Part shown: in pieces, positions 28,319 to 44,938 of the stretch | How positions within the stretch are numbered: position 1 is the first letter of the stretch | Layout of the letters: every line of letters starts with the position of its first letter | Origin: Lachnospiraceae bacterium | GTDB taxonomy: Bacteria > Bacillota > Clostridia > Lachnospirales > Lachnospiraceae | Reading direction: 5' to 3' | Assembly: GCA_017476665.1 (NCBI GenBank) | Contig: JAFUZJ010000006.1 | Location: 1-61,325 of the forward strand | DNA: 61,325 nt | The notes under the pieces: model-generated | The model's database searches: none | What the model was told of the DNA's origin: nothing | The model's input: the letters and a program-made list of their open reading frames with translations, nothing else | Position numbers and translations under genes: made by a program

Positions 28319-28625
28319 AAAGGCGATGACCAGGAGGAGTACGCATGACCCCTTGCCAGAGAGAGCGGTTGCCGCAGGGCGGAGCTGAGAGACTGCTTGA
28401 AGGGACAGGATGCGGAAGGTAGCTTGCGAGCCGGAATGCCCAACGGAGAATGTGACGTATGTCTGGAGGATGCAGACAGCGGACGAAACGCCAAGTAAGT
28501 GTTCCCGATCTGTCCCCGTTACAGGACAACATTTGAGGCAGGCAAAGTGCCTGTGAACAAAGGTGGTACCGCGTTACTGACGCCCTTTGCGGATCTGTGT
28601 CCGCAGAGGGCTGTTTTATTTTGAG
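28319..28625 (+). promoter_or_regulatory. Valine T-box riboswitch
   Basis: Leader that senses uncharged tRNA-Val and lets transcription pass into valS. The T-box antiterminator sequence AAGGTGGTACCGCG is at 28560-28573. In Stem I the AGTA bulge (28338-28341) is followed by CGCAT (28342-28346), which pairs with ATGCG (28410-28414); the opposite loop reads GAAGGTAG, so GTA at 28419-28421 is the best specifier codon and encodes valine, followed by the usual purine. The lower stem pairs CAGG with CTTG and GGC with GCC around a GATGA K-turn. A terminator hairpin (28583-28610) with T-rich tail ends the element. Confidence 0.93.
28582..28621 (+). terminator. T-box-controlled terminator
   Basis: CCCTTTGCGGA pairs with TCCGCAGAGGG and is followed by TGTTTTATTTT; mutually exclusive with the antiterminator that uses the T-box sequence just upstream. 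Confidence 0.85.
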
Positions 28626-28647
28626 AGGATTCAGGAAGGAGAACCCA

Positions 28648-31314
28648 ATGAGCAAAGAACTTGCAAAGACCTATGATCCCAAAGGGATTGAGGACAGACT
28701 TTACGAGAAATGGATGAACAACAAATATTTTCATGCCAAGGTGGATCACTCGAAGACCCCTTTCACCATCGTGATCCCGCCCCCAAATATTACGGGACAG
28801 CTGCATATGGGACATGCGCTGGACAATACCATGCAGGATATCCTGATCCGCTTTAAGCGTATGCAGGGTTATAACGCATTGTGGCAGCCCGGCACGGATC
28901 ACGCTTCCATCGCAACGGAAGTCAAGATCATTGAGAAACTGAAGGAAGAGGGCATCGACAAGCATGACCTGGGCCGTGAGAAATTTTTGGAGCGCGCCTG
29001 GGACTGGAAGAAAGAGTACGGCGGACGCATTATCTCACAGCTGAAAAAGCTGGGATCTTCCTGTGACTGGGACAGAGAGCGTTTCACTATGGACGAGGGC
29101 TGCAACAAGGCAGTTACCGAAGTGTTCGTAAAGATGCATGAGAAGGGATACATCTACAAAGGCTCCCGCATCATCAACTGGTGTCCGGTATGTAACACAT
29201 CCATTTCCGATGCGGAGGTGGAGTATCAGGAGCAGGCGGGACATTTCTGGCATATCAAATATCCTCTGATGAATGAGGACGGCACCGTCAGCGATACGGA
29301 GTTTCTGACCTTTGCCACCACCCGTCCGGAGACCATGCTGGGCGATACCGCCGTGGCGATCCATCCCGAGGATGAGCGCTATCAGCATCTGATCGGCAGA
29401 AAGGTGATGCTGCCCATTGTGAATCGCGTGATCCCAATCGTTACGGACACTTATGTGGACAGAGAGTTCGGTACCGGCGTGGTAAAGATTACCCCGGCTC
29501 ATGACCCCAACGACTTTGAGGTCGGAAAGCGCCACAATCTGCCTATCATCAACGTGATGAACGACGATGCCACCATCAATGAGAACGGCGGCAAGTATGC
29601 AGGCATGGATCGCTATGAGGCGAGAAAAGCCATTGTGGAGGAGCTGGAAAAAGAAGGGCTTTTAGTAAAGATTGAAGATTATAGTCACAATGTAGGTACT
29701 CATGATCGCTGCAAAACCACGATTGAGCCTTTGGTAAAAGAGCAGTGGTTCGTGAAGATGGACGAACTCATCAAGCCCGCAGTGGAGGCAGTGAAATCCG
29801 GCGACATCAAACTGATCCCGGAGCGCATGGAGAAGACTTATTACAACTGGACAGACAACATCCGCGACTGGTGTATCAGCCGTCAGCTCTGGTGGGGACA
29901 CAGGATTCCCGCATATTACTGTGACGATTGCAAGGAAGTGGTTGTGGCAAAGGAGATGCCGGGGGTTTGCCCTAAGTGTGGCTGCAAACATTTCACGCAG
30001 GATCCGGATACGCTGGATACCTGGTTTTCCTCGGCGCTGTGGCCTTTTGAAACCCTGGGTTGGCCCGAGCAGACAGAGGATCTGAAGTATTTCTATCCCA
30101 CGGATGTGCTGGTGACGGGCTATGACATTATCTTCTTCTGGGTGATCCGTATGATCTTCTCCGGATTTGAGCAGATGGGGGAGAAGCCGTTTAAGACCGT
30201 ATTGTTCCATGGTCTGATGCGCGACAGTCAGGGACGTAAGATGTCCAAGTCTCTGGGCAACGGCATCGATCCGCTGGAGATCATCGACCAGTACGGCGCG
30301 GACGCACTGCGTCTGACGCTGATCACCGGCAATGCGCCCGGTAACGATATGCGTTTCTATTACGAGAGAGTGGAGAATTCCAGAAACTTTGCCAACAAGG
30401 TCTGGAATGCATCCCGCTTTATCCTGATGAACATGGACGGCAAGGAAGTGACGAAACCTGTGGACAGCGATCTGCAGCCTGTAGACAAGTGGATCCTATC
30501 CAAGCTGAATACGTTGGTAAAAGATGTCACTGACAATATGGAACACTTTGAGCTGGGTATCGCGGTACAGAAGGTGTACGACTTCATCTGGGATGAATTC
30601 TGCGACTGGTACATTGAGATGGTGAAGCCCAGACTTTACAATACCGATGACGCAGCCAGCCAGAACGCGGCTTTGTGGACGTTGAAGAATGTGCTGATCG
30701 ACGCGTTGAAGCTGCTGCATCCGTATATGCCTTTCATCACGGAGGAGATCTTCTGCACACTGCAGAACGAGGAGGAGACCATCATGCTCAGCGCATGGCC
30801 CACCTACGACGAGGCGTGGAACTTCGCGAAGGAGGAGAAGGATATCGAGACCATAAAAGAAGCTGTCCGCGGTATCCGGAATGTCCGCAGCGAGATGAAC
30901 GTGGCTCCTTCCAGGAAGGCGCATGTATTTGTGGTCAGCGAGGACGACGGTATTCTGAATACCTTTACCGAGGGCAAATTATTCTTTGCATCTTTGGCTT
31001 ATGCAAGCGATGTGACCATGCAGAAAGATAAGTCAGGTATCGCCCAGGATGCGGTGTCCGTAGTGATCCCCGGCGCAACCCTCTACATTCCCTTTGCGGA
31101 GCTGGTGGACATTGGGCAGGAGATCGAGCGTCTGCAGAAAGAGCAGAAGCGCCTGGAGGGTGAACTGGCCCGTGTGAACGGCATGCTTTCCAATGAGAAG
31201 TTTATCTCCAAGGCTCCCGAGGCGAAGATCGCGGAGGAGAAGGAGAAGCTGCAGAAGTACACGCAGATGATGGAGCAGGTAAAAGAGAGACTGGCACAGC
31301 TGAAGAATGTTTAA
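28648..31314 (+). CDS. valS: Valyl-tRNA synthetase
   Basis: An 888-residue class-I synthetase charging tRNA-Val. The HIGH-type motif is QLHMGH near residue 50, the editing (CP1) domain spans about 200-360 with [15 protein letters not shown] is present near residue 535 ([10 protein letters not shown]), followed by the anticodon-binding helical domain and a C-terminal coiled coil ([19 protein letters not shown]). Length is normal. The frame is open from 28597, but that lies inside the T-box terminator; ATG 28648 has AAGGAGA upstream. It is controlled by the T-box. Confidence 0.96.
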
Positions 31315-31343
31315 TTAGGAAAACGGAGTGAAGTCATAGTAAA

Positions 31344-32981
31344 ATGGAGAGCAAAACATCACGTGTACTTATTGTTGACGATATGGCGATAAACAGAATG
31401 GTAATATCGTCTATGCTGGCTACACATGGGGTCATGTCAGATCAGGCAGAGAGTGGAAGGGAATGTCTTGCACTCTGTGAAAAGAGGGATTACGATCTGA
31501 TACTTTTGGATCATCGTATGCCGGATCTTGACGGGGTGGACACCCTGATAAGATTAAAGGAGATATTTAAAAGCCGCGGCAGGGAAGTTCCTATTGTTTG
31601 CCATACCACTGAAGATGGCGGAAAAAATATCAATCTGTATAAAGCTGCCGGTTTTGCGGAAGTATTGTTAAAGCCCATTGAACCGAAGGAATTACTCGAA
31701 GTACTTATGACGTATCTTCCTGACAGGAAAAATTCCGGGGACACTGACAGAGAATCCGCAAAGAGTGAACTTGAAAAGCTTCCTATGTGGCTTAAGCTCG
31801 TTCCTCATATTGATCTTGTTGCGGGGACTGCAAATTGCGGTTCGGCGGATGATTATATGGAAGCCCTGTACATGTTTTATTCGTCTATAGAGGAAAAGTC
31901 CAATGACATAGAGGACTTTCTGAATAAGAAAGACTGGAATATGTATGCGCTTCGTGTTCACTCGCTGAAAAGTATGGCAAGACTCATAGGCGCCAGAAAA
32001 CTCGGAGATGTGGCTGCCAGGCTTGAGAAAGATGCACGAGAGGGTGATTTGGAAACGGTTCGCAAGGATACGTCGGCCTTTTTGAAATCATACAGGGATT
32101 TTTCCGGTCTGCTCTCGCCATTTGAGGAAGATAATGAAATACAGCGGATGATCCGCGCCATGCGAACATCAAAAGGAGATGCTTTCAACGAACCGGATGA
32201 TCCGGATTACAGTCATTCTATCCTTTTCATACAAAGCGGGCAGGGAATCGTGAAAAAGGGGATTGAAACAAATCTTACCGCTGCCGGATTTACGGTTATT
32301 TCCATACCGGATGAGCCGGACAGAATTATCGGACACAGAGAAGATGCGGATATTATCATCTATTATCCGCGCGAGAGTGACGATGCGCATATCGGAATCA
32401 CAGTGAATCTTCTCGGAGAGATATGCCGGGATGATGCAAAGATACTATGCGTGATCGGAGATCAGGCAGATATCAAAGCAGCAATGCTCTCGGATGGTGC
32501 ATATCGTGTTTCGCGCAGTTATTTGAGACCGATAAATATCGAGCACTTTGTGAAAGATATGGAATATTTTGCCCGGTTGGAACAGGATTATCACCGGAGG
32601 AAAACAGTATTCGTTGTGGATGACGATGGGAGTTATCTGGCTGTGATCGAGCGATGGCTCTCTGCCGATTACGATGTGCTGTGTTTTAAAAGCGGAGAAG
32701 ATGTCCTGAAAGGACTGGAAGCTACGATGCCTGATCTGATCCTGCTTGACTATGAGATGCCGGAAATGAACGGATGCGAACTGATGAAGAGTATACGTAC
32801 GTCGTTTCCTTCACAAAAAATCCCCATCATTTTTTTGACAGGAAAAAATGACAGGGAGCATGTATTTCATGTTTTGGAATATAGACCGGACGGGTATCTT
32901 TTAAAGACATCACAGAAGGAAAATCTTCTGGATGTCATACAGAGATTCTTTGCCGAAACAATGTTTCGAATGTCTCTTTAA
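31344..32981 (+). CDS. Multidomain phosphorelay protein: REC-HPt-degenerate REC-REC
   Basis: A 545-residue cytosolic relay protein with no output domain. REC1 (about 5-126) keeps the DD pair, phospho-acceptor Asp56 in LILLDHRMP and Lys110. The HPt domain (about 165-255) has VHSLKSMARLIG with His206. Residues about 290-412 look like a receiver whose acceptor site is replaced (IIIYYPRES), so it is probably inactive. REC3 (about 420-540) keeps Asp469 in LILLDYEMP, but the usual late lysine context is altered. It can accept, shuttle and store phosphate. It begins 29 bases after valS without a clear terminator between, and converges on the lone receiver gene three bases away. Confidence 0.85.
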   Translation: MESKTSRVLIVDDMAINRMVISSMLATHGVMSDQAESGRECLALCEKRDYDLILLDHRMPDLDGVDTLIRLKEIFKSRGREVPIVCHTTEDGGKNINLYKAAGFAEVLLKPIEPKELLEVLMTYLPDRKNSGDTDRESAKSELEKLPMWLKLVPHIDLVAGTANCGSADDYMEALYMFYSSIEEKSNDIEDFLNKKDWNMYALRVHSLKSMARLIGARKLGDVAARLEKDAREGDLETVRKDTSAFLKSYRDFSGLLSPFEEDNEIQRMIRAMRTSKGDAFNEPDDPDYSHSILFIQSGQGIVKKGIETNLTAAGFTVISIPDEPDRIIGHREDADIIIYYPRESDDAHIGITVNLLGEICRDDAKILCVIGDQADIKAAMLSDGAYRVSRSYLRPINIEHFVKDMEYFARLEQDYHRRKTVFVVDDDGSYLAVIERWLSADYDVLCFKSGEDVLKGLEATMPDLILLDYEMPEMNGCELMKSIRTSFPSQKIPIIFLTGKNDREHVFHVLEYRPDGYLLKTSQKENLLDVIQRFFAETMFRMSL

Positions 32982-32984
32982 GCA

Positions 32985-33347
32985 TTAGACAAGAGCTCTT
33001 TCAATGGCTTTCAGCAGGGAAGGTTTGCCTTCCGATTTGGGCACGACACCGTCGGCTTTTATCTGATCACTGCCATCGCCGAAAACGGTGTCGTCCATTC
33101 CTGTCCGGTACAGAACAGGAATATTTTTTAATGTATCATTTGCGCGTATTTGGCGCAAGACGGTGGGACCGTCCATCTCAGGCATGGCATAATCGAGCAG
33201 GATAAGATCAGGTTTTCTGTCCGAGAGAAATGAAAGTGCATCTTTTCCTGATGCAGTCTTCGATACCTCATATCCGGCTTTTTCAAGCCAGCGACCTGTA
33301 ATCGCCAGCATATCTTCGTCATCGTCGATCAATAAAATAAGGCTCAT
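32985..33347 (-). CDS. Stand-alone response-regulator receiver domain
   Basis: A 120-residue CheY-sized receiver. The acidic pair IDDDED, acceptor Asp52 in LILLDYAMPEMDG and a late PKSE lysine are visible. It lies 22 bases after the giant hybrid kinase on the same strand, with its own AGGAGG, so it is most likely its cognate phosphate acceptor or sink. No output domain. The loop GMDDTVFGDGS replaces the usual Thr/Ser-Ala region, so conformational coupling may differ from CheY. Confidence 0.88.
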   Translation of the reverse strand: MSLILLIDDDEDMLAITGRWLEKAGYEVSKTASGKDALSFLSDRKPDLILLDYAMPEMDGPTVLRQIRANDTLKNIPVLYRTGMDDTVFGDGSDQIKADGVVPKSEGKPSLLKAIERALV

Positions 33348-33369
33348 TTGTGTCCTCCTGTTTCATTTT

Positions 33370-36300
33370 CTAATTTGCATGATTATCTAATATTAGTCGT
33401 GTCAATACCGAGAATAGTGCATCGGGCTCTACAGGCTTGGAGAGGTGGGCATTCATTCCGGCTTCAAGCGAAAGTCGTATATCCTCTTCAAATGCATTTG
33501 CCGTGAGAGCAATAATAGGAATGGAAGCAGCATCGGCACGATCTATTCCACGGATTTGACGGGTAGCTTCCAATCCGTTCATTTTGGGCATTCTGATATC
33601 CATCAGGATTGCATCATAGTACCCTATACCATGTTTTTCGAAGATTTCAAGCGCTTCCTCTCCGTTTGAGACAAGATCTGCTTTGATGCCATTGAGACCG
33701 AGAATCTGCTTGGTAATCTGTCCGTTGATCTCCACATCCTCAGCGATCAGAATCCTGCGTCCGCTTAAATGTCTTTTATGCCCCGACTTTTGCGAACTCC
33801 TATTTCGTTCGGCAAGTATCTTGCTGAGTTCTTCGCGAATGTTTCCTGCAAACATAGGCTTGGACAGAAAGGCATCCACACCTGCGGTAATGGCATCCTC
33901 CATTACTTCATACCAGTTATAGGTAGTGAGGATGATGGTTATATCTTCGTATTTGGTGATCCGGCGGATGCGTCTTGTAAGTTCTATGCCGTCTATTCCG
34001 GGCATTTTCCAATCTGCCAGCACCAGATTAAAAGGCGATGTCGGATGACTGAAGTTCCGGAACATGGAGAGCGCTTCCTCGCCGTTCAGGACATATTCGG
34101 ATTCCACTCCGATGCGGTTCAGGATCATCTTTGCATGTTCGCAGGCAGTGACATCGTCATCAACGATAAGCGCGCGTATACTGGAGGGGGCAAAGGTATA
34201 TCTGTCGTTTCCTTTTTCATCGCATAAATCTAAAGGTATCATCACAGTAAAAGTGGAACCTTTTCCTACTTCAGAAACCACATCTATCGTTCCGTTCATC
34301 ATATTGACAATGTTTTTTGTTATCGCCAGTCCAAGGCCGGTACTTCCGAAACGATTGCTGGTTCCCTCCGTTTCTTTTGAGAACGGCTCAAACAGATGGG
34401 GAAGATAATCCTTATGAATTCCCACACCGGTGTCCTGGATCACAAATCTTATAAAGGCCTTTCCGCTGCTTCGGCTGATTTCATCAACCGTGAAGAGTAC
34501 CTTTCCCGGAGCCGGGGTATATCGCACGGCATTTCCAAGAATGTTGAAGATAACCTGCTTGAGTTTCATATCGTCACCGATATAATAATCGTTCATTTGA
34601 CCTAGAACACTGCAGTCAAAAATGAGACCTTTGTCATTACATTGCGATTCAATCGTGGAATTGATCTGCTCAATCATATTCCCAAAAGAAAATTCTTCCT
34701 GTTTCAGCTTCATATTACCCGACTCGATCAGGCTCATATCAAGGATGTCATTTATCAGGGAGATGAGGTGCCGTGCACTCGTTCCGATCTGTGTGATGAG
34801 TTCTCTGGTCTCGTCATCCAGATTCTGATTGCGCAGAGCGATATTATAAAGACCAATAATAGAATTCATTGGTGTGCGTATTTCGTGGCTCATGTTTGAA
34901 AGAAAAGCGGTCTTTGCAAAATTGGCCCGTTCCGCCTCCTCCAGTGCCCTTGCCAACATTCGGCTCCGTTCTTCCTCGACTACGGCAAGGGATATATGCG
35001 AGGATTCGTCGGTGGGTTCAGAATGTCTCAATATAGTATTGAGAATATCCTTCAGTTGCCGATACTCATCAAGCAGAGCGGGAGTGTCACGACGCAGTGT
35101 CTCCAAGTCATGGCTTTTCGCGGCCATTTCCATCTCCTTTGCCTTCTCAGAGAGACGAAGTGCTCCAATCGCTCCCGAAGTACTTTTTAAAGAATGGACA
35201 TTGATGGCAAGCGAATCATAATCCTTGTTTTGAAAATCGGTTTCAAGCTGAGCCGCCTTGGTATCTATTGATATCACAAAAGTTTCAATCGCAAAGAGAT
35301 AATCTTCCGCATCTCCGCAGTATTCGATTCCTCTTTCGGGATCAAGCTGGGGATAATTAAAAATGATTTTGGGAAGCTTTGAAAGTTCATCATCCTCCTC
35401 GTAAGGGGTACTCCCATCATTTAAAATGACGGAATCAGGTGGAAGATACTTGACCATCATTCGTTCCATTTCATCAATATTTACGGGCTTTGAGAGATAA
35501 TCCGTAAATCCCGCGTGAATCATCTTTTCCTTATCACCGGAGACTGCACTTGCCGTAAGGGATATAATGGGTGTTTTTTCAAACTTTTCGGGACACTTAT
35601 GGCGAATGGTAAGAAGCGTTTCGATTCCGTTCATCTGAGGCATCCTGTAATCCAGAAAAACGAGATCGTAATGTTCCTTCTCGAATTTTTCAATACATTC
35701 CGCACCACTTGTAGCTACGTCGATATGCATTTTGGTTCGTTTGAGCAGCCCGGCGATGACCTGCAGATTCATCGGCGTATCGTCAACAACGAGAAGTCTC
35801 ATTCCCGGTGCCGTAAAAAGTGCCTGTTTCCGTCTGGAGTCGGGAGCTTCGTGAATATGAACATCAGGATTAAATTGTCCCACGGGAATCCAGTCTGATA
35901 CCTGCTGTGTCAGGACAAAAGAAAATCTGGATCCCGCCTCATATTGGCTTTCCACTCTCAGTTCGCTGTCCATCAGGGAGAGCAGTTGTCTGGTTATGGA
36001 AAGACCGAGACCGGTTCCCTCAATACTTCTCGTTTTCTTCAGGTCAATGCGGTCAAACGGTTCATAAAGCCGATCCATATCTTCTGCGCGGATTCCGATA
36101 CCTGTGTCGGCCACGGAAACAGTAAAAGTGACGGAATCCGGGTGCTTCTCCTTAAGGCAGATCTCAAAGTCAACTCTACCCTCTTCGGTATATTTTACGG
36201 CATTGGTAAGCAGATTTGTGATAATTTGTTTCACACGAATCTCATCGCCCCAAAGATGGGAAGGCAGATCGGGATCTATCAGAAAATTGAGTTCGAGTCC

Positions 36301-37095
36301 CTTGGTCTCTGCACGAAACTGAACCAGATTATACAGATCTGCTAAAACGGATCTGAGAGAATATTTTTCATGGACGAGCGTCATTTTCCCCGTCTCTATC
36401 TTGGAGAAATCCAGGATATCACTTATGATTCCCAGCAGGCTTATTCCTGCCTTGCGGATATTTTCAGAATAATCCAGTATAACGGAATTGTCTGTTTCAC
36501 GCTGTATCATCTCATTCATACCGAGAATGGCTGTGATCGGCGTACGGATTTCATGACTCATATTGGAAAGAAATGCAGTTTTAGACAGATTGGCATGCTC
36601 TGCCTGCTCCAGCGCAAATGCAAGATTTTGCGCACGCTCTTTTTCCGCTGCGGCAACGCGGTTCTCCGTTATATCCTCAATGAACACATAATAGACCTCA
36701 CCGTAACCCGGAAGCGTTGCAAAGTGCCCATAGTCATCGACCCAGCGGATGGAACCATCTTTGCGGATGATACGATACACCACATAGTCGATGCTCCGGC
36801 TGTTGGACGGGCGCGCAATTTGTTCCTCTATGGAATTCTGGATACTGTCATAATCCTCCGGATGAACCATGCCCTGAAAATTATTTCCCGTGAGTTCCCG
36901 GAATTCATCGACGGTTGTACAGCCGAAGATTTCACAGGTAGACTGGTTCACATACAAAAGCTCCATACTCTCGTCGGCGCGGTAGATAAAAAAGCCGCCG
37001 GGCATCTGCTCTGCCAGCCATTCCACTGCGGACATACCCTGTTCAAAAGGGATGGACGTCATAATATCGTCGCTGATCACTCTGTTTCTCTGCAT
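33370..37095 (-). CDS. Giant hybrid histidine kinase with two kinase cores (PAS-HK-REC-HPt-HK-REC-REC)
   Basis: A 1241-residue soluble kinase. Order: PAS (about 25-150), HisKA 1 (His181), ATPase 1 (NLLTNAVKYTEEG, DTGIGI, GTGLGL), REC (Asp482), HPt (His634 in VHSLKSTSGAIG), HisKA 2 (His737), ATPase 2 (NILGNAVRYT, DTGVGI, STGLGL), REC (Asp1028), REC (Asp1166). Every catalytic motif is intact, so both cores may work. No membrane helix was seen; input is through the PAS domain. The ATG at 37095 has AGGAGG seven bases upstream; the frame is open to 37173 without a ribosome site. It is divergent from the HD-GYP gene and co-directional with the lone receiver. Confidence 0.9.
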   Translation of the reverse strand: MQRNRVISDDIMTSIPFEQGMSAVEWLAEQMPGGFFIYRADESMELLYVNQSTCEIFGCTTVDEFRELTGNNFQGMVHPEDYDSIQNSIEEQIARPSNSRSIDYVVYRIIRKDGSIRWVDDYGHFATLPGYGEVYYVFIEDITENRVAAAEKERAQNLAFALEQAEHANLSKTAFLSNMSHEIRTPITAILGMNEMIQRETDNSVILDYSENIRKAGISLLGIISDILDFSKIETGKMTLVHEKYSLRSVLADLYNLVQFRAETKGLELNFLIDPDLPSHLWGDEIRVKQIITNLLTNAVKYTEEGRVDFEICLKEKHPDSVTFTVSVADTGIGIRAEDMDRLYEPFDRIDLKKTRSIEGTGLGLSITRQLLSLMDSELRVESQYEAGSRFSFVLTQQVSDWIPVGQFNPDVHIHEAPDSRRKQALFTAPGMRLLVVDDTPMNLQVIAGLLKRTKMHIDVATSGAECIEKFEKEHYDLVFLDYRMPQMNGIETLLTIRHKCPEKFEKTPIISLTASAVSGDKEKMIHAGFTDYLSKPVNIDEMERMMVKYLPPDSVILNDGSTPYEEDDELSKLPKIIFNYPQLDPERGIEYCGDAEDYLFAIETFVISIDTKAAQLETDFQNKDYDSLAINVHSLKSTSGAIGALRLSEKAKEMEMAAKSHDLETLRRDTPALLDEYRQLKDILNTILRHSEPTDESSHISLAVVEEERSRMLARALEEAERANFAKTAFLSNMSHEIRTPMNSIIGLYNIALRNQNLDDETRELITQIGTSARHLISLINDILDMSLIESGNMKLKQEEFSFGNMIEQINSTIESQCNDKGLIFDCSVLGQMNDYYIGDDMKLKQVIFNILGNAVRYTPAPGKVLFTVDEISRSSGKAFIRFVIQDTGVGIHKDYLPHLFEPFSKETEGTSNRFGSTGLGLAITKNIVNMMNGTIDVVSEVGKGSTFTVMIPLDLCDEKGNDRYTFAPSSIRALIVDDDVTACEHAKMILNRIGVESEYVLNGEEALSMFRNFSHPTSPFNLVLADWKMPGIDGIELTRRIRRITKYEDITIILTTYNWYEVMEDAITAGVDAFLSKPMFAGNIREELSKILAERNRSSQKSGHKRHLSGRRILIAEDVEINGQITKQILGLNGIKADLVSNGEEALEIFEKHGIGYYDAILMDIRMPKMNGLEATRQIRGIDRADAASIPIIALTANAFEEDIRLSLEAGMNAHLSKPVEPDALFSVLTRLILDNHAN

Positions 37096-37190
37096 CAGGA
37101 ATCCTCCTGTTATGTATGAATTTATATTCGTTATTTTACCACAGTATCCGACAGAATAAAAGTTTTTTTGCAATCAGCCAAATTTCATGA

Positions 37191-37219
37191 TTGCGAATCC
37201 TTTAGATGATTATTATAAT
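37191..37219 (+). promoter_or_regulatory. Promoter of the HD-GYP gene
   Basis: TTGCGA (37191-37196), 17-base spacer, TATAAT (37214-37219), about 48 bases before the start codon in the divergent intergenic region. Confidence 0.65.
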
Positions 37220-37266
37220 AGACGCAAGAGCAGTCAAATCTTAAACAGACACAGGAGGCAATAAAA

Positions 37267-38703
37267 ATGGATTGGGTTGTTGTCGTGGATGATGATGCGG
37301 AAAACAGACAGCGCGTGGCATCCATCCTTCGTAGGGAGAACATAAAAGTTACTGAAATTTCCTCAGGAGAAGAACTTTTTAACTATGTGGAAGGAATGGT
37401 TCCACTGCCTGACCTGATCCTGCTGGATGTTCTCATGCCCGGCATGAGTGGCTTTGAAACACTTAAAAATCTGCGCAAAAAGACCGGGAATGAAAGTAAA
37501 ATACCGGTCATTTTTCTCACTGGAAACGAGGATCTTGAGTCGGAGATGGAAGGACTGTCCCTCGGTGCGGTGGATTTTATCCGCAAGCCCTTTTTCGCGG
37601 AAATATTGATTCTGCGGGTAAAACATACGATCGAATTTATGCGTCTTAAGAATGATCTTGCCAGAGAAGTCGACAAAAAGGCAAAGGAAAACAACCGCCT
37701 CACGCTCCATGTGGTTCAGACGCTTGCCGAGGCAATTGACGCAAAAGATACCTATACCAACGGTCATTCCGGGCGTGTCGCGGCATATTCGAGAGAGATT
37801 GCCAAAAGACTCGGCTATGAGGAGAGCAAGCAAGATGAAATATATATGATGGGTTTACTTCATGATGTGGGAAAGATCGGGGTACCGGATTGGATCATTA
37901 ACAAGACGGACAGGCTCACAGATGAAGAATTCGCAGAGATCAAAAAGCATCCTTCCGTTGGAAACAGAATTCTCAAGAAAATAAAGGAAATGCCGAAGCT
38001 TGCCTATGGTGCAAGATGGCATCACGAGAGGATTGACGGACGCGGTTATCCTGACGGGCTTAAGGGCAATGAGATTCCAGAAGAGGCAAGGATCATTGCC
38101 GTAGCAGATGCCTATGACGCTATGACAAGTAACCGCAGCTACCGCAATGTAATGCCGCAGGCTGCCGTCAGGTCGGAAATCGAAAAAGGAAAGGGAAGCC
38201 AGTTTGACGAGCGTATCGCTGATATTATGATTGGCATGATAGATGAAGATACGGAATATATCATGCGGGAGGGGGAGGCTGAAAAGAACGGCTTGCGCGA
38301 GCGCTCCTCCGAGGAAACGATAAAGCATATGGATGAACAGCATGTACTCCCTGAGCAGCTCACAGCGTTTTCAGAGCTGGATACTGATCTGGGGCTCTTT
38401 TTGTGCGGAGAAGTCGAGGATTATCTGGATGCCCTTGCTATCTTTGCGGGATCGATTCGATCAAAAGCCGAAAAAATTGAAAGCGCTCTCGAAAGTGGGG
38501 ACTTCGAGACTTATGCCATATTGGTTCACTCACTGAAAAGTTCTGCCCGGACAATCGGGGCTACGACCGTTTCTGATCTTGCAAGGCAGATGGAAACAGC
38601 TTGCAAGGAGGGAGATCTTGATCGGGTGCGAAGAGAGACGGGGATGCTTCTTTCCGGCTATAAGGACATGGAAATACCGCTTAAATCCATACTGGAATTG
38701 TGA
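37267..38703 (+). CDS. REC-HD-GYP-HPt c-di-GMP phosphodiesterase
   Basis: A 478-residue protein joining signalling to second-messenger turnover. The receiver (1-125) has Asp54 in LILLDVLMP. The HD-GYP domain (about 145-325) has NGHSGRV, HD at 199-200 in LLHDVGKIG, HHERIDGRGYP (GYP at 260-262) and the DAYDAMTSNR motif, so hydrolysis of c-di-GMP is expected. A C-terminal HPt domain (about 375-475) carries His421 in VHSLKSSARTIG. This addition is uncommon: most REC-HD-GYP proteins stop after the catalytic domain. Its own promoter lies in the gap shared with the giant kinase. A transposase remnant begins right at its stop codon. Confidence 0.9.
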   Translation: MDWVVVVDDDAENRQRVASILRRENIKVTEISSGEELFNYVEGMVPLPDLILLDVLMPGMSGFETLKNLRKKTGNESKIPVIFLTGNEDLESEMEGLSLGAVDFIRKPFFAEILILRVKHTIEFMRLKNDLAREVDKKAKENNRLTLHVVQTLAEAIDAKDTYTNGHSGRVAAYSREIAKRLGYEESKQDEIYMMGLLHDVGKIGVPDWIINKTDRLTDEEFAEIKKHPSVGNRILKKIKEMPKLAYGARWHHERIDGRGYPDGLKGNEIPEEARIIAVADAYDAMTSNRSYRNVMPQAAVRSEIEKGKGSQFDERIADIMIGMIDEDTEYIMREGEAEKNGLRERSSEETIKHMDEQHVLPEQLTAFSELDTDLGLFLCGEVEDYLDALAIFAGSIRSKAEKIESALESGDFETYAILVHSLKSSARTIGATTVSDLARQMETACKEGDLDRVRRETGMLLSGYKDMEIPLKSILEL

Positions 38704-39592
38704 GGTCGAACGACAAGCATGACAGGAACAGCTGCCTGATTGTTCCGGGCAAAGGAAAAAATGCTGTTGTAGAACTTTCAAAAATTCAGCGGAAATATAT
38801 TCCAGGACTCTTCAAGTATTTTGGGGCGACGGCAGATCCGCGGGATCCCAGGTATATTACTTATTCCAACACAACTATGTTAGGACAGATGTATTTTAAG
38901 GGGATAGCCGGGATTGTCAGTATGCAGGGGATGACAGAGGCATTCAAACGGCTGGCAGAAAAGATCAAGAAAAGGTTTCCAAGACTTCCGATCCTGTTGA
39001 TGGGAGACAGCCTGTATGCCTGTGAGCCTGTGATGGAGATATGCCGCAGGAATGGCTGGGATTACCTGCTGAGATTCAAAGATGGAAGGATTCCGAGTGT
39101 TGCAGAAGAATATAATGCAATCACAGAAAAAGGGAGATCAGGAAATGCGGAGTTTGTGAATGCAATCGATCATGAAGGACACGTTTTGAATGTACTGCGG
39201 TATGAGGAAAAAACAGTGACTAATAACACTGTCCAGACAACAAAGTTCCAATGGATCACGAACCTGCGTATCACTGAAAAGAATGCGGAAAAGATAGCAG
39301 CGACAGGACGGTTGAGATGGAAGATAGAAAACGAAGGATTCAACCGCCAAAAAAGTGGCAGTACGATATCACGCACGCCTGCAGCTTTAACGCAACAGCT
39401 CTTAAGAATCATTATCTGATCTACCAGATATCAGATATTGTCCTGCAGTTGTATGAATATTTTTCGTTGGAAAAGAAAGGGATCAAGCGAACAAAAAAGA
39501 ATATGTCTTCCATACTGTTAGCTAGCTTTGGACGGCGGTTAACAGAGAAAGACATATCCAGAGAACGACTGGGTAAGCCAACCTTCGAATAA
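38700..39592 (+). pseudogene. Decayed transposase (internally deleted and frameshifted)
   Basis: Remnant of a DDE-type transposase of a kind common in Lachnospiraceae. The N-terminal part (KYIPGLFKYFGATADPRDPRY) is recognisable, but at about residue 78 the sequence jumps from MQGMTEAF to a late segment (KRLAEKIKKRFPRLP, then MGDSLYACEPVMEICR), so roughly the middle third, with the first catalytic residues, is missing. At about 39345-39352 a run of six A breaks the frame; the C-terminus (KKWQYDITHACSFNATALKNHYL) continues in the next frame to 39592. The first start codon overlaps the HD-GYP stop, so there is no own expression signal. No clear terminal inverted repeats were found. Confidence 0.8.
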
Positions 39593-39721
39593 GGTAATTA
39601 TAGCAGAGGGGGTGACACCTGCCAAGAGGAAAATGCAAAATGCAAAAAAAACTATACACATAAGGATTCATTATATATAAAGCGTAGTTCACCTTTTAGA
39701 ACTGCATTCATGCATACTTGA

Positions 39722-39815
39722 TTGACAAAACAAAAATAAAATTGTACTATGTAATTATAAATATAATATAAAGATTCTAAAGTGCATATCCGGCAGATCG
39801 CCACATTTCACTTTG
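39722..39815 (+). promoter_or_regulatory. Promoter and conserved leader of first Uma2 gene
   Basis: TTGACA (39722-39727), 17-base spacer, TACTAT (39745-39750). About 30 bases after the expected start lies AGTGCATATC (39781-39790) followed by a segment alike in about 26 of 32 positions to 41689-41720 upstream of the second Uma2 gene. The remaining bases from 39593 show no gene. Confidence 0.65.
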
Positions 39816-39874
39816 AATGATATGAAACCCATTTCACAATGATTTAAAGAAGTTCAAATTAAAGGAGGATTTTT

Positions 39875-40552
39875 ATGGGAAAAGACTATACTGATATGCC
39901 CGATGGAGTTGGAAAGATCCAGGGTGTCGGGGAAGGAGCGCCTGCTTATCAGGCAGAGAGATTTTTACAGCTTGTGCCGGAACCGGAGAAAATGACGCTG
40001 GAGGATTATCTGGCGCTGCCGGATGACCGGAGGGTGGAAATGATCGACGGCGTGTTTTACGATATGGCTGCGCCGACGTTGGTACACCAATTGATTTCCA
40101 TGGAGATCTGGAAATCAATGAAAGAATATGTTGAGAAAAATGGCGGAGATTGTGTTCCTTTTGCAGCACCTGTAGATGTACAGCTGTTCCACGATGACAA
40201 GACGATTGTACAGCCGGATGTGTTTGTGGTGTGTGACAGAGATAAACTCATCAAGCAGAGAGTACTGGATGTGCCGGATCTGATCGTGGAGGTGGTATCT
40301 CCGGGCAGTCTTAAGATGGACACGCGGCTGAAGCTGGAAAAATATAAACAGGCGGGCGTGCGCGAATACTGGATTGTGTTCCCCGAGGAAAAGAAAGTGC
40401 TGGTCTATCTTTTTGAGAAGGCAAAAGAAGCGGCGGATATCGTACCAAAAGAGTATACTTTTGCGAACAGAGTGCCGGTCGGTATCTGGGATGACATATG
40501 TGAGGTGGACTTTGGGGAGATTTATGAGCAGTGCAGTTTTTTGTATGAGTAA
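39875..40552 (+). CDS. Uma2-family endonuclease (paralogue 1)
   Basis: A 225-residue PD-(D/E)XK-fold protein of the Uma2/DUF820 family. An N-terminal extension (about 1-45) contains GAPAYQA. The family core begins EDYLALPDDRRVEMIDGVFYD and carries the active-site line QPDVFVVC ... IVEVVSPGS ... REYWIVFPEE. The acidic residues expected to bind metal (PD, VEV) are intact. Function is unproven for the family; a DNase role is inferred from the fold. It has its own promoter, AAAGGAGG ribosome site and ATG, and is followed by an HD-domain gene. Confidence 0.85.
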   Translation: MGKDYTDMPDGVGKIQGVGEGAPAYQAERFLQLVPEPEKMTLEDYLALPDDRRVEMIDGVFYDMAAPTLVHQLISMEIWKSMKEYVEKNGGDCVPFAAPVDVQLFHDDKTIVQPDVFVVCDRDKLIKQRVLDVPDLIVEVVSPGSLKMDTRLKLEKYKQAGVREYWIVFPEEKKVLVYLFEKAKEAADIVPKEYTFANRVPVGIWDDICEVDFGEIYEQCSFLYE

Positions 40553-40563
40553 TTTCGAAGATA

Positions 40564-40572
40564 TGGTATAAT
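40564..40572 (+). promoter_or_regulatory. Extended -10 promoter of HD-domain gene
   Basis: TGGTATAAT matches the extended -10 consensus; no good -35 is present. It lies 34 bases before the start codon. Confidence 0.45.
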
Positions 40573-40605
40573 CAGATCATATTATATCTTTGGAGGAAGA
40601 TTGCC

Positions 40606-41403
40606 ATGCAAAGACAGCAGGTTGAGGAGGTATTCAGGCAGTACACGTCGGCATATAACGCAAATGATCCCAAAATTAAGCTGAAAATAGATCATACATT
40701 CCGGGTGGCAATGCTGGCGGAAACCATTGCAAAGTCCCTGGGGGGAGCAGATGAGGATCTGGCATGGCTGTGCGGTATGCTCCATGACATTGGACGATTT
40801 GAGCAAGTGCGGAGATTCCATACTTTTTTTGACGCGGAATCTGTGGACCATGCCAGGTTTGGCGCGGATCTGCTGTTTCAGGAAGGGCTGCTTGAACGTT
40901 TTGCATTGGATCTGTCAGAGAAAGAAAAGCGGATATTGGAAGTGAGCATCCGAAATCATAATGCTTACAGGGTGCAGGAAGGGCTGACAGAGGAAGAGTA
41001 CACATATTGCAATATTTTGCGGGATGCGGACAAGATCGACATTTTCCGCGTGAACTGCGATACGCCGTTGGAGGAAATTTATAATGTGACAACGGAGGAA
41101 TTGCGGAATGCAGGGGTCAGCAAAGCGGTAAAGCAGTGTTATTTTGACCGGACGGCTGTACGGCGTGACTGCCGCCAAACTGCTGCAGACTATGTGGTAG
41201 CGCATATTTGTCTCGTGTTTGAACTGGTATATCCGATCAGCAGGAAGATTGCGAAAGAGCAGGGATATGTTGACCGATTGCTTGATTTCCCTTCCTGGAA
41301 TGAGACGACACAGGAATGGTTCTCGTATATGAGGAATACGATATGGAAAGAGAAAAAAGAATATCAGGAATATGAGAACGAAAAAAATACATCGGTTACT
41401 TGA
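40606..41403 (+). CDS. HD-domain metal-dependent phosphohydrolase
   Basis: A 265-residue HD-superfamily protein. The metal-binding signature is complete: the first His in IDHTFRVAMLAE, HD in GMLHDIGRFEQ, the late His in RNHNAY and Asp in RDADKIDIFR. Such proteins hydrolyse phosphate esters of nucleotides or related molecules; the substrate is not predictable. The C-terminus (about 215-265) is helical and charged. Its position between Uma2 paralogues is notable. GGAGG precedes the ATG. Confidence 0.85.
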   Translation: MQRQQVEEVFRQYTSAYNANDPKIKLKIDHTFRVAMLAETIAKSLGGADEDLAWLCGMLHDIGRFEQVRRFHTFFDAESVDHARFGADLLFQEGLLERFALDLSEKEKRILEVSIRNHNAYRVQEGLTEEEYTYCNILRDADKIDIFRVNCDTPLEEIYNVTTEELRNAGVSKAVKQCYFDRTAVRRDCRQTAADYVVAHICLVFELVYPISRKIAKEQGYVDRLLDFPSWNETTQEWFSYMRNTIWKEKKEYQEYENEKNTSVT

Positions 41404-41558
41404 TCCGGCAGGCAAAGCTGACAACCTATGCGAAGACCGCGGTACAGCGGGGTATCAGGGAGGAGGCAGTCTTCCAATATTGCGGAAAACAAGATGAAAA
41501 CTTATCTCGGGGAACGGTGATGATTGGCGGAGCAGCGCTGCAATTATATTTTGCATAA
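41376..41558 (+). pseudogene. Open fragment without start, possible gene remnant
   Basis: After a stop at 41373-41375 a frame stays open for 60 codons to TAA at 41556. Its reading (for example YLIRQAKLTTYAKTAVQRGI, then EEAVFQYCGKQDE) looks protein-like and runs past the stop of the overlapping HD gene, but it lacks a ribosome site. A 42-codon ATG frame also overlaps. I cannot assign either; a degraded gene end is one explanation. Confidence 0.3.
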
Positions 41559-41625
41559 AAAAATTTTTGCGGTAAGATTTTCAACTACAGGGAGGGATGG
41601 ACATCGACTCGACTGAATAAAGTGC

Positions 41626-41720
41626 TTGACATGACAGAAATAAAATCGTATTATATAAACATAAAAGATTAATGCTTTAATTCTTTTAAGTGCATATCAG
41701 GTAGATCACCGCAATTCACC
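41626..41720 (+). promoter_or_regulatory. Promoter and conserved leader of Uma2 genes 2-3
   Basis: TTGACA (41626-41631), 17-base spacer, TATTAT (41649-41654), then AGTGCATATC at 41689 and the same downstream block as in the leader of Uma2 paralogue 1. Spacing from the -10 to the block differs by only about four bases between the two copies. Confidence 0.65.
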
Positions 41721-41772
41721 ATGTAAATAAAACTATAACAGAACAGGGAACAAAAAGGGAGGAGTGTTTGTA

Positions 41773-42507
41773 TTGGGAAAAGACGATAATGATAACAGTG
41801 ATGAGAACAACAAAATAAAGGGGGTCATGGATGGCGCACCTGCTTATCAGGCTGACACATATCTTTGTGTTGTGCCGGATGCCGTAAAGAAAGATAATAT
41901 TGGGGAAGAAGACAGTGCGCGGATGATCTGGGAGACAGGTGACAAAACGATCGAGGATTATCTGGCGCTCCCGGAGGAAAGAAGAGTGGAACTGATTGAT
42001 GGCGTGTTCTACGATATGGCGGCGCCGTCCTATGTACATCAGATCATAGCTCTAAAAATTCATCAAATTCTATTAAATCATGTGGAGAAAAACGGTGGTT
42101 CCTGTATGCCGTTTGCGGCACCGGCAGATGTACAGCTCTTTTGTGACAGCGATAAGACGATGGTTCAGCCGGATGTATTTGTGGTGTGCAACAGAGATCA
42201 ACTCACCATGAACAGATTGCTTGGTGCGCCGGATCTGGTCATGGAGGTGATATCGCCGTGGAGCAGGTGGCGGGATGCTGATCTGAAATTACGTAAATAC
42301 CGGGAGGCGGGCGTGCGAGAATACTGGATTATATTTCCGAAAGAGAAGAAAGTGCTGGTCTATCTTTTTGAAAAGTCGGACGCAACAGGAGATATTGTGC
42401 CGACAGAATATACTTTCACAGATAGAGTGCCCGTAGGAATCTGGGATGGAAAGTGTGAGGTGGACTTCGCGGAAATCTATGAGAGGTGTAAATTCTTATA
42501 TGACTGA
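41773..42507 (+). CDS. Uma2-family endonuclease (paralogue 2)
   Basis: A 244-residue Uma2 protein. It shares the GAPAYQA N-terminal extension of paralogue 1, then the core TIEDYLALPEERRVELIDGV, QPDVFVVC, VMEVISP and REYWIIFPKEK. After the key Glu the usual SPS block reads SPWSRWRD, a divergence. The TTG at 41773 is chosen because it lines up with the MGKD start of paralogue 1 and has GGGAGGAG eight bases upstream; a GTG at 41764 lies within that ribosome site. It is followed 45 bases later by paralogue 3 without a promoter. Confidence 0.83.
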   Translation: MGKDDNDNSDENNKIKGVMDGAPAYQADTYLCVVPDAVKKDNIGEEDSARMIWETGDKTIEDYLALPEERRVELIDGVFYDMAAPSYVHQIIALKIHQILLNHVEKNGGSCMPFAAPADVQLFCDSDKTMVQPDVFVVCNRDQLTMNRLLGAPDLVMEVISPWSRWRDADLKLRKYREAGVREYWIIFPKEKKVLVYLFEKSDATGDIVPTEYTFTDRVPVGIWDGKCEVDFAEIYERCKFLYD

Positions 42508-42552
42508 ATTTAGGAAACTAAAGTGTTTGAAATAGAGGAAGGAGAGTTTGTA

Positions 42553-43164
42553 TTGGGAAAAGAGCATAAAGACAGTGAACAAATAATCTGGGAGACAGGC
42601 AATAAAACGATAGAGGATTACCATGCTCTACCGGACGAAAGGCGGGTCGAGCTGATCGACGGCGTGTTTTATGACATGGCGGCGCCGTCCTATGTGCATC
42701 AGAATATATCCGGTATGATATATCATATCCTTATGCGTCATGTGGAGAAAAATAAGGGTTCCTGTATGCCGTTTATTTCGCCGGCGGATGTACAGCTTTT
42801 CGGTGATGATAAGACGATGGTGCAGCCGGATGTATTTGTGGTATGTAATCGGGATCGGATCACATATGCACGGCTGGTCAATGCGCCGGATCTGGTCATT
42901 GAGGTGATATCTCCCAGTACCAGAAGAAAGGATATGGATTTGAAATTACGTAGATATCGGGAAGCGGGGGTCAGAGAATACTGGATTGTATTTCCTGAGG
43001 AGAAACAGCTGTGGGTTTATCTTTTTGGAGAGAAGGACACTGGATCAGAGGCGCACCAGGTTTATACCTTTGCTGATAAAGTCCCGGTTGGAATTTGGGG
43101 CGGCGCATGTGAGGTGGACTTTGTGGAGATTGATGAGCGGTGTGAATTTTTGTATCAGGTGTAG
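42553..43164 (+). CDS. Uma2-family endonuclease (paralogue 3)
   Basis: A 203-residue Uma2 protein lacking the N-terminal GAPAYQA extension. The core TIEDYHALPDERRVELIDG, QPDVFVVC, VIEVISPSTRRKD and REYWIVFPEE is fully canonical, so of the three it best fits an active nuclease. The TTG at 42553 matches the start context of paralogue 2 (AAGGAGAGTTTGTA then TTGGGAAAAG). Co-transcribed with paralogue 2; terminator at 43188. Confidence 0.83.
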   Translation: MGKEHKDSEQIIWETGNKTIEDYHALPDERRVELIDGVFYDMAAPSYVHQNISGMIYHILMRHVEKNKGSCMPFISPADVQLFGDDKTMVQPDVFVVCNRDRITYARLVNAPDLVIEVISPSTRRKDMDLKLRRYREAGVREYWIVFPEEKQLWVYLFGEKDTGSEAHQVYTFADKVPVGIWGGACEVDFVEIDERCEFLYQV

Positions 43165-43187
43165 CAGTGGACGTTTTATAATAAAAG

Positions 43188-43227
43188 AATGCAGTCACTT
43201 TTTTCAATTCGTGAGTGGCTGCATTTC
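43188..43227. terminator. Terminator between Uma2 gene 3 and putP
   Basis: AATGCAGTCACT (43188-43199) pairs with AGTGGCTGCATT (43214-43225) with one G-U pair. T runs lie in the loop and just after. A small palindrome GGGAAATTTATTTCCC (43274-43289) overlaps the putP stop codon. Confidence 0.7.
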
Positions 43228-43280
43228 TAATATCTTATTTTGTATCAGTTACTTTCTGAGAATTTTATTTCCTGGGAAAT

Positions 43281-44813
43281 TTATTTCCCATTTACGCTTT
43301 CAAACTCTTTGCAGATCGCTTCTTCCGGCTCCTTGGTGGCCAGGGATACGACCAGGATCACGATCGTAGATACGATGAAGGCAGGCAGCAGTTCATAGAT
43401 ATTCCAGGCACCGCCCAGGGGACGGATCAGGAATTTCCACACGAAGATGCACACGCCGCCGGATACCATACCGGCCAGGGCGCCTGCCTTGGTGGTGCGC
43501 TTCCAGAACAGGGAGAAGAGCATCAGCGGGCCGAAAGCCGCGCCGAAGCCTGCCCAGGCAAAGGAAACGATGGTGAATACGGAGCTGTCGGGATTCCAGG
43601 CCAGCGCGACACCGATGAGTGCGATCACAGCCACGGTACCCCGGGCAAAGCGCATCGCTTTTTTCTCATCCATCTCGATGTGCAGGAAATCCTGAAGGAT
43701 GTTCTGCGAGAAGCTGGAGGATGCCTGCAGCAGCTGGGAGTCCGCGGTGGACATAGTACATGCCAGAATGCCGGCCATGACCAATCCGGCGATCAGAGCA
43801 AAGAACACGCCTCTCTGACTCAGAATATTTGCCAACTCAATCACGACGGTCTCGGATTCGGAGCTGGTGTTCAGGAAAGGAATCAATCCGTTTTTGGATA
43901 CTGCGTTGCCCACAACGCCGATCAGGATTGCCACGCTCATGGAGATGACTACCCAGATGCTTGCAATTCTTCTGGACAGGGTCAGTTCTTTTTCATCACG
44001 GATCGCCATGAAACGGAGCAGGATATGGGGCATGCCGAAATAGCCAAGTCCCCATGCCAGCGTAGAGCATACGGTGAGGAAACCGTAGGGAACTGCGTTG
44101 CCGGTAGCCGGATCATAGGTGGCGTTCATCGCCAGATATCCGCTCATGGACTGTGCGTTTGCGACTACATTATCCCAGCCGCCTGCGTATTCGATGCCGA
44201 AGATCACAATGGCGATCAGCGCGAAGGTCATCACGATACTCTGCATCAGGTCGGTGGTGGATACAGCCAGGAAGCCGCCGATCACAGTGTAGGCTACGAC
44301 CACGGCGCCGCCCACGATCATGGCAACGTGATAATCCACTCCGAACAGGGAATTAAACAGGGTTCCGATGGCCTTAAATCCTGATGCGGTATAAGGGATA
44401 AAGAAGATCAGGATCACCAACGCCGCAATGCAGGAGAGAATGTTTTTCTCATCGTGATAGCGCTTGGAGAAAAAGTCCGGGATGGTGATGGCACCGATCT
44501 TGGCGGAATATCTTCGAAGGCGCTTAGACACCAGCAGCCAGTTTAAGTAGGTTCCGGCAGCCAGGCCGATGATGGTCCAGCCCACGTCGCAGATACCGGT
44601 CAGATATGCCAGACCGGGCAGTCCCATCAGCAGGTAGCTGCTCATGTCGGAGGCTTCTGCGCTCATGGCGGTGACAAGGGGTCCGATCTTTCGGTTTCCC
44701 AGATAGAACTCATCTACGGATTTGCCGCTTCCCTTTTTGTTGGAAGCAAAACCGATATAGAGCATCAGGGCAAGATACAGAACCATGACGATAATAATAC
44801 AGATTTGGCTCAT
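43281..44813 (-). CDS. putP: Sodium/proline symporter
   Basis: A 510-residue sodium:solute symporter with about 13 membrane helices. The start CIIIVMVLYLALMLYIG, the GKSVDEFYLGNRKIGP loop, MSAEASDMSSYLLMGLPG (helix 2, with the Na+/proline-site residues) and the STADSQLLQASS segment are PutP hallmarks. It imports proline with Na+. Ribosome site AAGGAGAAG lies upstream. It stands alone on the minus strand. proA elsewhere in the window makes proline, so uptake and synthesis are both covered. Confidence 0.92.
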   Translation of the reverse strand: MSQICIIIVMVLYLALMLYIGFASNKKGSGKSVDEFYLGNRKIGPLVTAMSAEASDMSSYLLMGLPGLAYLTGICDVGWTIIGLAAGTYLNWLLVSKRLRRYSAKIGAITIPDFFSKRYHDEKNILSCIAALVILIFFIPYTASGFKAIGTLFNSLFGVDYHVAMIVGGAVVVAYTVIGGFLAVSTTDLMQSIVMTFALIAIVIFGIEYAGGWDNVVANAQSMSGYLAMNATYDPATGNAVPYGFLTVCSTLAWGLGYFGMPHILLRFMAIRDEKELTLSRRIASIWVVISMSVAILIGVVGNAVSKNGLIPFLNTSSESETVVIELANILSQRGVFFALIAGLVMAGILACTMSTADSQLLQASSSFSQNILQDFLHIEMDEKKAMRFARGTVAVIALIGVALAWNPDSSVFTIVSFAWAGFGAAFGPLMLFSLFWKRTTKAGALAGMVSGGVCIFVWKFLIRPLGGAWNIYELLPAFIVSTIVILVVSLATKEPEEAICKEFESVNGK

Positions 44814-44938
44814 TTTACTTCTCCTTTTTCTATTTTTTCCTGTTTTTCATGAAAACTCATACTGTTCTACAATACCATATCTTCCGCGATTAGAAAAGAA
44901 AAACTTTCAAATAATTGTCGCATTTTGTGCTGGGGGGT

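Follow-up and report, generated by a model that had tools for sequence, protein, structure and literature searches.

Domain architecture of the four-gene island

The window analyzed here is a 61,325-nt stretch of DNA from a Lachnospiraceae bacterium, comprising one entire contig (JAFUZJ010000006.1, C30) of a 3.64-Mb draft assembly in 72 contigs (GCA_017476665.1). Positions 31344-38703 hold an island of four genes, P1 (+), P2 (-), P3 (-) and P4 (+), which encode proteins of the kind found in two-component phosphorelays, together with a single HD-GYP protein (Table 1). In a Pfam scan (E up to 0.01) the four proteins contain two kinase cores, three histidine phosphotransfer (HPt) domains and one HD-GYP domain, as well as eight receiver-like (REC) domains, seven of them intact and one degenerate. 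An initial annotation of this DNA, made from the sequence without database searches, had proposed at least two kinase cores and eight or nine receivers, one degenerate; the kinase cores are exactly two, both located in P3, and the receivers number eight rather than nine. The three HPt histidines that it named, His206 in P1, His634 in P3 (numbered from the ATG) and His421 in P4, were confirmed. No DNA-binding, PP2C or GGDEF domain and no other output domain was found in P1-P4 by the same scan, in agreement with its view that the island lacks DNA-binding, PP2C and cyclase domains and that HD-GYP is the only effector.

Table 1. Coordinates of the island genes and of the features that surround them in the window.
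Feature	Position	Strand	Domains or basis
valS, left flank	28597..31314	+	86-93% identity to 8 relatives (7 of the same genus and G279)
Segment between valS and folC, 14.9 kb	31315..46196		Neighbor comparison; G+C content at third codon positions (GC3)
P1, relay protein, 545 aa	31344..32981	+	Pfam: REC (5-122), HPt (His206), degenerate receiver (~293-405), REC (420-536)
P2, lone receiver (Asp52), 120 aa	32985..33347	-	Pfam: REC; convergent with P1, the two ends 3 bp apart
P3, double kinase	33370..37095	-	Pfam: PAS-HisKA-HATPase-REC-HPt (His634)-HisKA-HATPase-REC-REC
P3/P4 spacer, divergent, 171 bp	37096..37266	both	Promoter-like sites at 37191-37219 (+) and 37237-37209 (-)
P4, effector, 478 aa	37267..38703	+	Pfam: REC (Asp54), HD-GYP, HPt (His421); sole recognizable enzyme of the island
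Partial DDE transposase frame abutting P4	38700..39419	+	Pfam: DDE_Tnp_1_4, DDE_Tnp_1
folC-like Mur ligase, right flank	46197..47558	+	Pfam: Mur_ligase_M and Mur_ligase_C

The open reading frame of P3 spans 33370-37173 and would give 1,267 aa from a TTG; the most likely start is the ATG at 37095, which is preceded by AGGAGG and gives 1,241 aa. AGGAGG-like ribosome-binding sites also precede P2 and P4. The promoter-like sites in the spacer are matches to consensus only, and the region has 19 such sites against a mean of 12.2 in shuffled sequences. All 22 positions examined in P3 are conserved in the three aligned sequences, the kinase residues of both cores are intact, and no membrane segment is evident from the hydropathy profile (highest 19-residue mean 1.1). 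P4 matches Pfam HD_5 with 129.2 bits against a cut-off of 27.2, and its receiver and HD-GYP motif residues are kept in all seven aligned sequences; two of the seven (L156 and L157) are missing the C-terminal HPt domain. The best NCBIfam match of P4 is a NosR-family model (NF053512), from which it differs in that its 179.5 bits are well short of the 400 bits set as the curated cut-off and in that it carries the C-terminal HPt domain.

P1 and P2 consist of receiver and HPt domains with no output domain. Ten aligned P1 sequences all keep Asp56, Asp469, His206 of the HPt domain and, in each of the two intact receivers, the Lys; the Thr of the first receiver is variable, being Thr in six of the ten and Ala or Gly otherwise. 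The stretch at about 293-405 has no Pfam assignment. Compared by hhalign with the profile of the last P1 receiver (REC3) it gave E 6e-4 and a probability of 28% over 112 columns, where the positive control (REC1 against REC3) reached 99% and six unrelated profiles all gave E 0.06 or worse. Nine of the ten sequences have Tyr, and one has Phe, at the position aligned to the phospho-accepting Asp. The assignment of this stretch as a degenerate receiver has modest support from the profile comparison. The key residues of P2 are kept in five of five sequences, and in all five loci that hold P1 and P2 side by side (the window and L154-L157) the two genes are convergent. Proteins of about 250-280 aa that combine a degenerate receiver-like half with an intact receiver, and that are related to the C-terminal half of P1, are encoded beside kinase-REC-HPt genes in L040 (4487-5251), L072 (8421-9197), L103 (3022-3792) and L104 (6314-7111); these too have no recognized output domain.

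Recurrence of the island in other genomes

In order to determine whether the four genes belong together, we compared gene neighborhoods across the Lachnospiraceae, a check that the initial annotation had proposed, and found that homologs are mostly clustered rather than scattered in the family samples. All four genes are linked in three genomes, namely the window's own, XBB2008 and G451. The XBB2008 proteins (L105) are 75% (P3), 69% (P2), 68% (P1) and 72% (P4) identical to those of the window and are encoded in the order P3, P2, P1 (opposite), P4, the P1-P3 block being inverted relative to the window. In G451 (L155) the identities are 73% for P3, 62% for both P2 and P1, and 70% for P4, and here P4 is turned as well. 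A search of 30900-40700 for long inverted repeats that could explain the block inversion returned only short imperfect pairs of 16-24 nt. Synonymous divergence between the window and XBB2008 is saturated, and third codon positions differ about 4-5 times more often than second positions.

Partial versions of the set were found as well. G377 and G223 have the convergent P2/P1 pair together with a P4 that lacks the HPt domain and a single HK-REC-HPt kinase (HK, histidine kinase); the double kinase P3 (73% and 72% identity) is encoded elsewhere in these genomes (L183 and L184). In G196, P3 lacks the second kinase core, and a P4 with the HPt domain lies on a separate contig. Full-length P1 at 45% identity or more is present in 8 of 397 family genomes, and P3 in 6 of 378, one of which (G196) has no second core. 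Weaker P1 homologs include one match at 31% in G495; stops interrupt the other full-length matches at this level (30-31%), which are in G495, G368 and G178; in G022 the two halves of P1 are adjoining frames split by a stop. The first 146 relatives searched gave no full-length P1 or P3, at the thresholds used, outside the window's own genome. A sample of 373 genomes from the order adds P1 in G782, and all 18 matches fall in the same family.

The genome is rich in domains of this kind, with 11 HPt, 13 HD-GYP and 28 GGDEF matches, which would favor the idea that four unrelated two-component genes have become neighbors by chance. However, XBB2008 and G451 also have these four genes side by side, in different genomic locations, and a comparison of flank genes found none that the window shares with these two loci; across the other island loci it gave a GGDEF match at 32% identity in L157 and, within the island genes themselves, shadow frames. 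In addition, P1 (at 53% identity or more) occurs in six family genomes, P3 in six and both in five, where about 0.1 would be expected (6 x 6 / 378; hypergeometric p ~6e-10, with the 53% line set after the list was seen), and the protein fusions described below join the same parts. We regard chance neighborhood as next to incredible, and refuted as far as sequence can refute it. The comparison thus supports a four-gene set that belongs together and recurs, rearranged, in XBB2008 and G451, a finding that is new here.

Origin of the double kinase and of the HPt domain of P4

We examined the two kinase cores of P3 in a tree of 98 sequences (FastTree, local supports). Core 1 is sister to the single kinases encoded beside REC-HD-GYP proteins in L156 and L157 (support 97), while core 2 falls in a deep, separate clade of 26 sequences (support 100) made up of HK-REC and HK-REC-REC kinases. 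P3 thus fuses two kinase families, a composition that is new here. Six of the 23 other sequences in the core 2 clade have a GGDEF-EAL protein in the locus (L084, L086, L128, L159 and both kinases of L158). These are REC-GGDEF-EAL proteins without the GGDEF motif in L128, L158 (two sequences) and L159, and PAS-GGDEF-EAL proteins, in which the EAL motif was not found, in L084 and L086. Two further sequences (L089) have a GGDEF protein, and the rest (for example L085 and L091-L101) have none in the fetched stretches, so the link of core 2 to EAL enzymes is only a tendency. The window's own genome contains a second, different cluster of a double kinase and HD-GYP (L041; G000:C2:1-19000, 5878-16638), in which a 2,009-aa protein that combines an HPt domain with two kinase cores adjoins a REC-REC-HD-GYP gene and is near another HK-REC-HPt gene.

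The HPt domain of P4 was placed in a tree of 82 HPt sequences, which has only 103 columns. The four P4-type HPt domains form a clade (96) inside a clade of ten (96) that also holds those of the island kinases; the P1 HPt domains of five HD-GYP-linked loci form a clade of their own (97), and all nine P1-type HPt domains together form none. In a tree of 43 REC-HD-GYP proteins a C-terminal HPt domain requires at least two changes, one in the P4 lineage (99) and one in L061, which has a long branch. Based on these two trees, P4 most likely gained a copy of the HPt domain of its kinase. Two other explanations were rejected. A derivation from the free-standing HPt proteins of EAL-type systems does not fit the grouping with kinase HPt domains. 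Service of the P4 HPt domain to kinase core 2, which has none of its own, is countered by G377 and G223, where core 2 is present and P4 lacks the HPt domain, and by G196, where P4 has it and P3 lacks core 2.

Association of HPt domains with REC-HD-GYP proteins

HPt domains are found in the same protein (9) or within 300 bp (23) for 32 of the 43 REC-HD-GYP proteins, against 1 of the 21 HD-GYP proteins without a receiver (Fisher p ~8e-8); the 21 include an HD hydrolase of 265 aa that is unlikely to be of the HD-GYP type. The loci counted had been collected for similarity to P4, P1 or P3, or as HD-GYP and HPt genes of the window's own genome, so the sample is non-random and its relatives are not independent. 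Clustering of the HD-GYP domains at 85% identity reduces the counts to 26 of 35 proteins with a receiver and 1 of 19 without one; at 75% they become 9 of 11 and 1 of 11. Within the window's own genome, an HPt domain shares or adjoins the gene for 4 of the 13 HD-GYP matches and for none of the 28 GGDEF matches (Fisher p 0.007).

Some relatives carry the whole chain in one piece: HK-REC-HPt-REC-HD-GYP proteins are encoded in L067 and L068, which are nearly identical, and in L072, and other fusions are HPt-REC-HD-GYP in L071 and HK-REC-REC-HD-GYP-HPt in L061. Relays of the kinase-REC-HPt kind, either adjoining a REC-HD-GYP protein or fused to one, are common in this family. In L129 (10001-16790) a relay of HK-REC-HPt and HK-REC proteins has a REC-SpoIIE phosphatase in the place of the REC-HD-GYP protein, and L130-L132 and L134 have the same gene order.

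A proposed multistep phosphorelay ending in an HD-GYP protein

In the RpfC/RpfG system of Xanthomonas, a hybrid kinase with REC and HPt domains phosphorylates a phosphodiesterase of the REC-HD-GYP type whose gene belongs to the same operon (PMC3749722). The N-terminal half of P3 likewise has HisKA, HATPase, REC and HPt domains with intact residues; P4 is a REC and HD-GYP partner with intact catalytic residues; and kinase and effector are encoded together in the window, XBB2008 and G451, although P3 is unlinked in G377 and G223. The island differs in that it has no RpfC-type membrane sensor region for the fatty-acid diffusible signal factor (DSF), P3 having a PAS domain and no strongly hydrophobic segment, and in that it has a double kinase, an HPt domain on the effector and two extra receiver proteins, P1 and P2. 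In ArrS/ArrR and RocS/RocR a kinase-REC-HPt protein passes the phosphoryl group to a receiver fused to a phosphodiesterase of cyclic di-GMP (c-di-GMP), as described in PMC11841396; the effector there is of the EAL type, whereas here it is HD-GYP. HPt domains are also reported among those fused to EAL proteins of Caulobacterales (PMC9756655).

We consider it likely that the island encodes an elaborated multistep phosphorelay of the RpfC/RpfG type, probably acquired horizontally, with the HD-GYP phosphodiesterase P4 as its terminal enzyme. A cytosolic signal sensed by the PAS domain would act on kinase core 1 of P3 (His181), from which the phosphoryl group would pass to the P3 receiver (Asp482), the P3 HPt domain (His634) and the receiver of P4 (Asp54), changing the hydrolysis of c-di-GMP by the HD-GYP domain. 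We infer that hydrolysis is the output and that phosphorylation may switch it on. Kinase core 2, which is followed by two receivers and no HPt domain, may be a fused second input from the other kinase family; the HPt domain of P4 might let P4 take phosphoryl groups from the same receivers or give them back; and P1 and P2 could serve as a branch, buffer or reset. The proposal of the initial annotation that a PAS input is wired to c-di-GMP breakdown holds in outline on the grounds of linkage, HPt association and fusions; its direction, sign and substrate we infer.

Several observations weigh against this reading. The best-scoring solved HD-GYP chain for P4 is 5z7c, a phosphodiesterase specific for 3'3'-cGAMP; c-di-GMP is nonetheless the likelier substrate, since the genome has 28 GGDEF matches. 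Phosphorylation inhibits the phosphodiesterase in ArrS/ArrR, which has an EAL effector (PMC11841396), so that the sign for P4 could be reversed. No HPt domain lies within 300 bp of 11 of the 43 REC-HD-GYP proteins, two of which have one within 3 kb and some of which are near contig ends, and among six REC-HD-GYP proteins fetched later, outside the count, HPt is adjacent in L186, L187 and L190 and not in L184, L188 and L189. A linear chain leaves the output-less receivers of P1 and P2 unexplained, and neither phosphotransfer nor activity can be proved by sequence. The neighbors of P1 also vary. P1 at 45% identity or more is present in nine genomes, counting the window's own. A REC-HD-GYP gene stands beside it in five; two (L158 and L159) have a kinase, a free HPt protein and a REC-GGDEF-EAL protein without the GGDEF motif; in G782 (L195) a 20-kb stretch holds none of the HD-GYP, GGDEF and EAL genes; and in G475 P1 is on a 3-kb contig that is too short to tell. 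The weaker homologs of P1 in L160 and L161 (29-30%) have no HD-GYP, GGDEF or EAL neighbor either. The terms dedicated and self-contained, used in the initial annotation, are too strong if taken strictly: P3 is unlinked in two genomes (L183 and L184), P1 accompanies an EAL-type system in two others (L158 and L159) and neither type in a third (L195), and cross-talk with other relays is possible, given the numbers of HPt, HD-GYP and GGDEF matches in the genome.

This variation would suit a scheme in which c-di-GMP breakdown is only one branch, the free receivers of P1 and P2 bind partner proteins and provide the main outputs, and P4 is a side enzyme or feedback arm; DivK and CheY are examples of free receivers. 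P1 and P2 persist where P4 has no HPt domain and P3 is unlinked (L156 and L157), P1 homologs stand beside relays of the EAL type or of neither type, and the degenerate receiver-receiver proteins without output accompany kinase-REC-HPt genes in four loci. On the other hand, a receiver-linked HD-GYP or EAL protein is near P1 in seven of the eight testable loci at 45% identity or more, the window included, and no partner protein can be named, so we judge this scheme unlikely.

The island could also run in reverse, or as a sink, with P3 acting chiefly as a phosphatase and the extra HPt domains and receivers draining phosphate, so that P4 is kept off (or on) unless the PAS signal is present. Such a role might account for the excess of receiver-like domains (eight) over kinase cores (two) and for an HPt domain on the effector, and the inhibition seen in ArrS/ArrR points the same way; but the kinase residues are intact in both cores of P3, and the RpfC/RpfG chain runs forward and activates (PMC3749722), which makes it quite improbable. 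A further idea, speculative and rather doubtful, is that P4 is a relay node and not the end, receiving on its receiver and handing on through the copied kinase HPt domain to P1, P2 or the receivers of the kinase. With the second kinase fused on, two signal inputs would then converge on a single HD-GYP enzyme, and the cassette would spread among Lachnospiraceae as a plug-in controller of c-di-GMP.

A chain of the RpfC/RpfG kind, which we favor for the island, is known; new here are the double kinase of two families, the kinase-related HPt domain on an HD-GYP protein and the recurring four-gene set. The combination of such a double kinase with an HPt domain on the HD-GYP effector and a REC-HPt-degenerate receiver-REC protein was not found described in the available parts of the open-access literature (including PMC3749722, PMC11841396, PMC10333796, PMC9756655, PMC9540692 and PMC8534201), and the open-access paper retrieved on Lachnospiraceae and c-di-GMP did not, in the parts available, treat such a relay.

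Genomic setting and probable horizontal acquisition of the island

The island lies within a segment inserted between valS and a gene for a Mur ligase, which we take to be folC. We looked for valS in 18 chosen genomes, found it in 15 and fetched its surroundings for 14. In ten of the 14, folC follows within 2.5 kb, and in eight of them within 800 bp; in the other four it was not found near valS, one of these being at a contig end. The same TPR gene comes next after folC in nine relatives, followed by spoIIAB-sigF in five. In XBB2008 and G451, valS and folC are direct neighbors, separated by about 20 bp in the former and by a few bp in the latter, and the island is located elsewhere in the genome. 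GC3 is 0.45-0.50 for P1-P4 and 0.49-0.55 for the genes downstream of P4 as far as 43164; backbone genes that were measured have mostly 0.54-0.69, with two exceptions at 0.46 and 0.50, and the transporter and hydrolase genes just before folC have host-like values (0.69 and 0.64). Against G451, P3 (73% identity) and P4 (70%) are at least as well conserved as valS (70%), P1 and P2 being lower (~62-64%); against XBB2008, valS (81%) is above all four island genes. The insertion between valS and folC, the low GC3, the transposase frame abutting P4 and the comparison of identities with valS together favor horizontal acquisition, and the island was probably acquired as a cassette. No second copy of the transposase frame was found in the draft genome. 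Three genes of the Uma2 family (putative endonucleases) are clustered within the valS-folC segment (39875-40552, 41764-42507 and 42523-43164).

A GGDEF gene at 25469-26836, a putative diguanylate cyclase which the initial annotation had placed 6 kb from the island, ends 4.5 kb from P1. It was ruled out as an island member, as it sits past valS and outside the insertion; since, in addition, the 20-kb surroundings of the island in XBB2008 and G451 yielded no GGDEF gene, its proximity is probably incidental. The window contains no match to known RNAs, riboswitches included, at gathering scores. A role in anti-phage defense was also considered, and PADLOC gave weak partial domain matches only, with no convincing full-length match to a defense model. 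Elsewhere in the window, a TRAP-type DctP gene overlaps the gene of a hybrid kinase (HisKA, HATPase, REC and HPt) at 52581-56761, a further HPt relay with no HD-GYP gene beside it, and the product of a chemoreceptor gene at 17132-18532 has CZB, which binds zinc, as its sole sensor domain at E 0.001.

Implications for the Lachnospiraceae

Many of the named relatives are rumen or gut records. If the proposed phosphorelay is correct, the family would present a stepwise rebuilding, through fusions and duplicated domains, of an RpfC/RpfG-like relay of two genes, with stages represented by separate genes (L054 and L106), one-piece fusions (L067 and L072), an effector that gained a C-terminal HPt domain twice by the fewest changes (the P4 lineage and L061), and the double kinase. 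The island would then also be a compact, transferable system for testing the coupling of signals to c-di-GMP breakdown in Lachnospiraceae.

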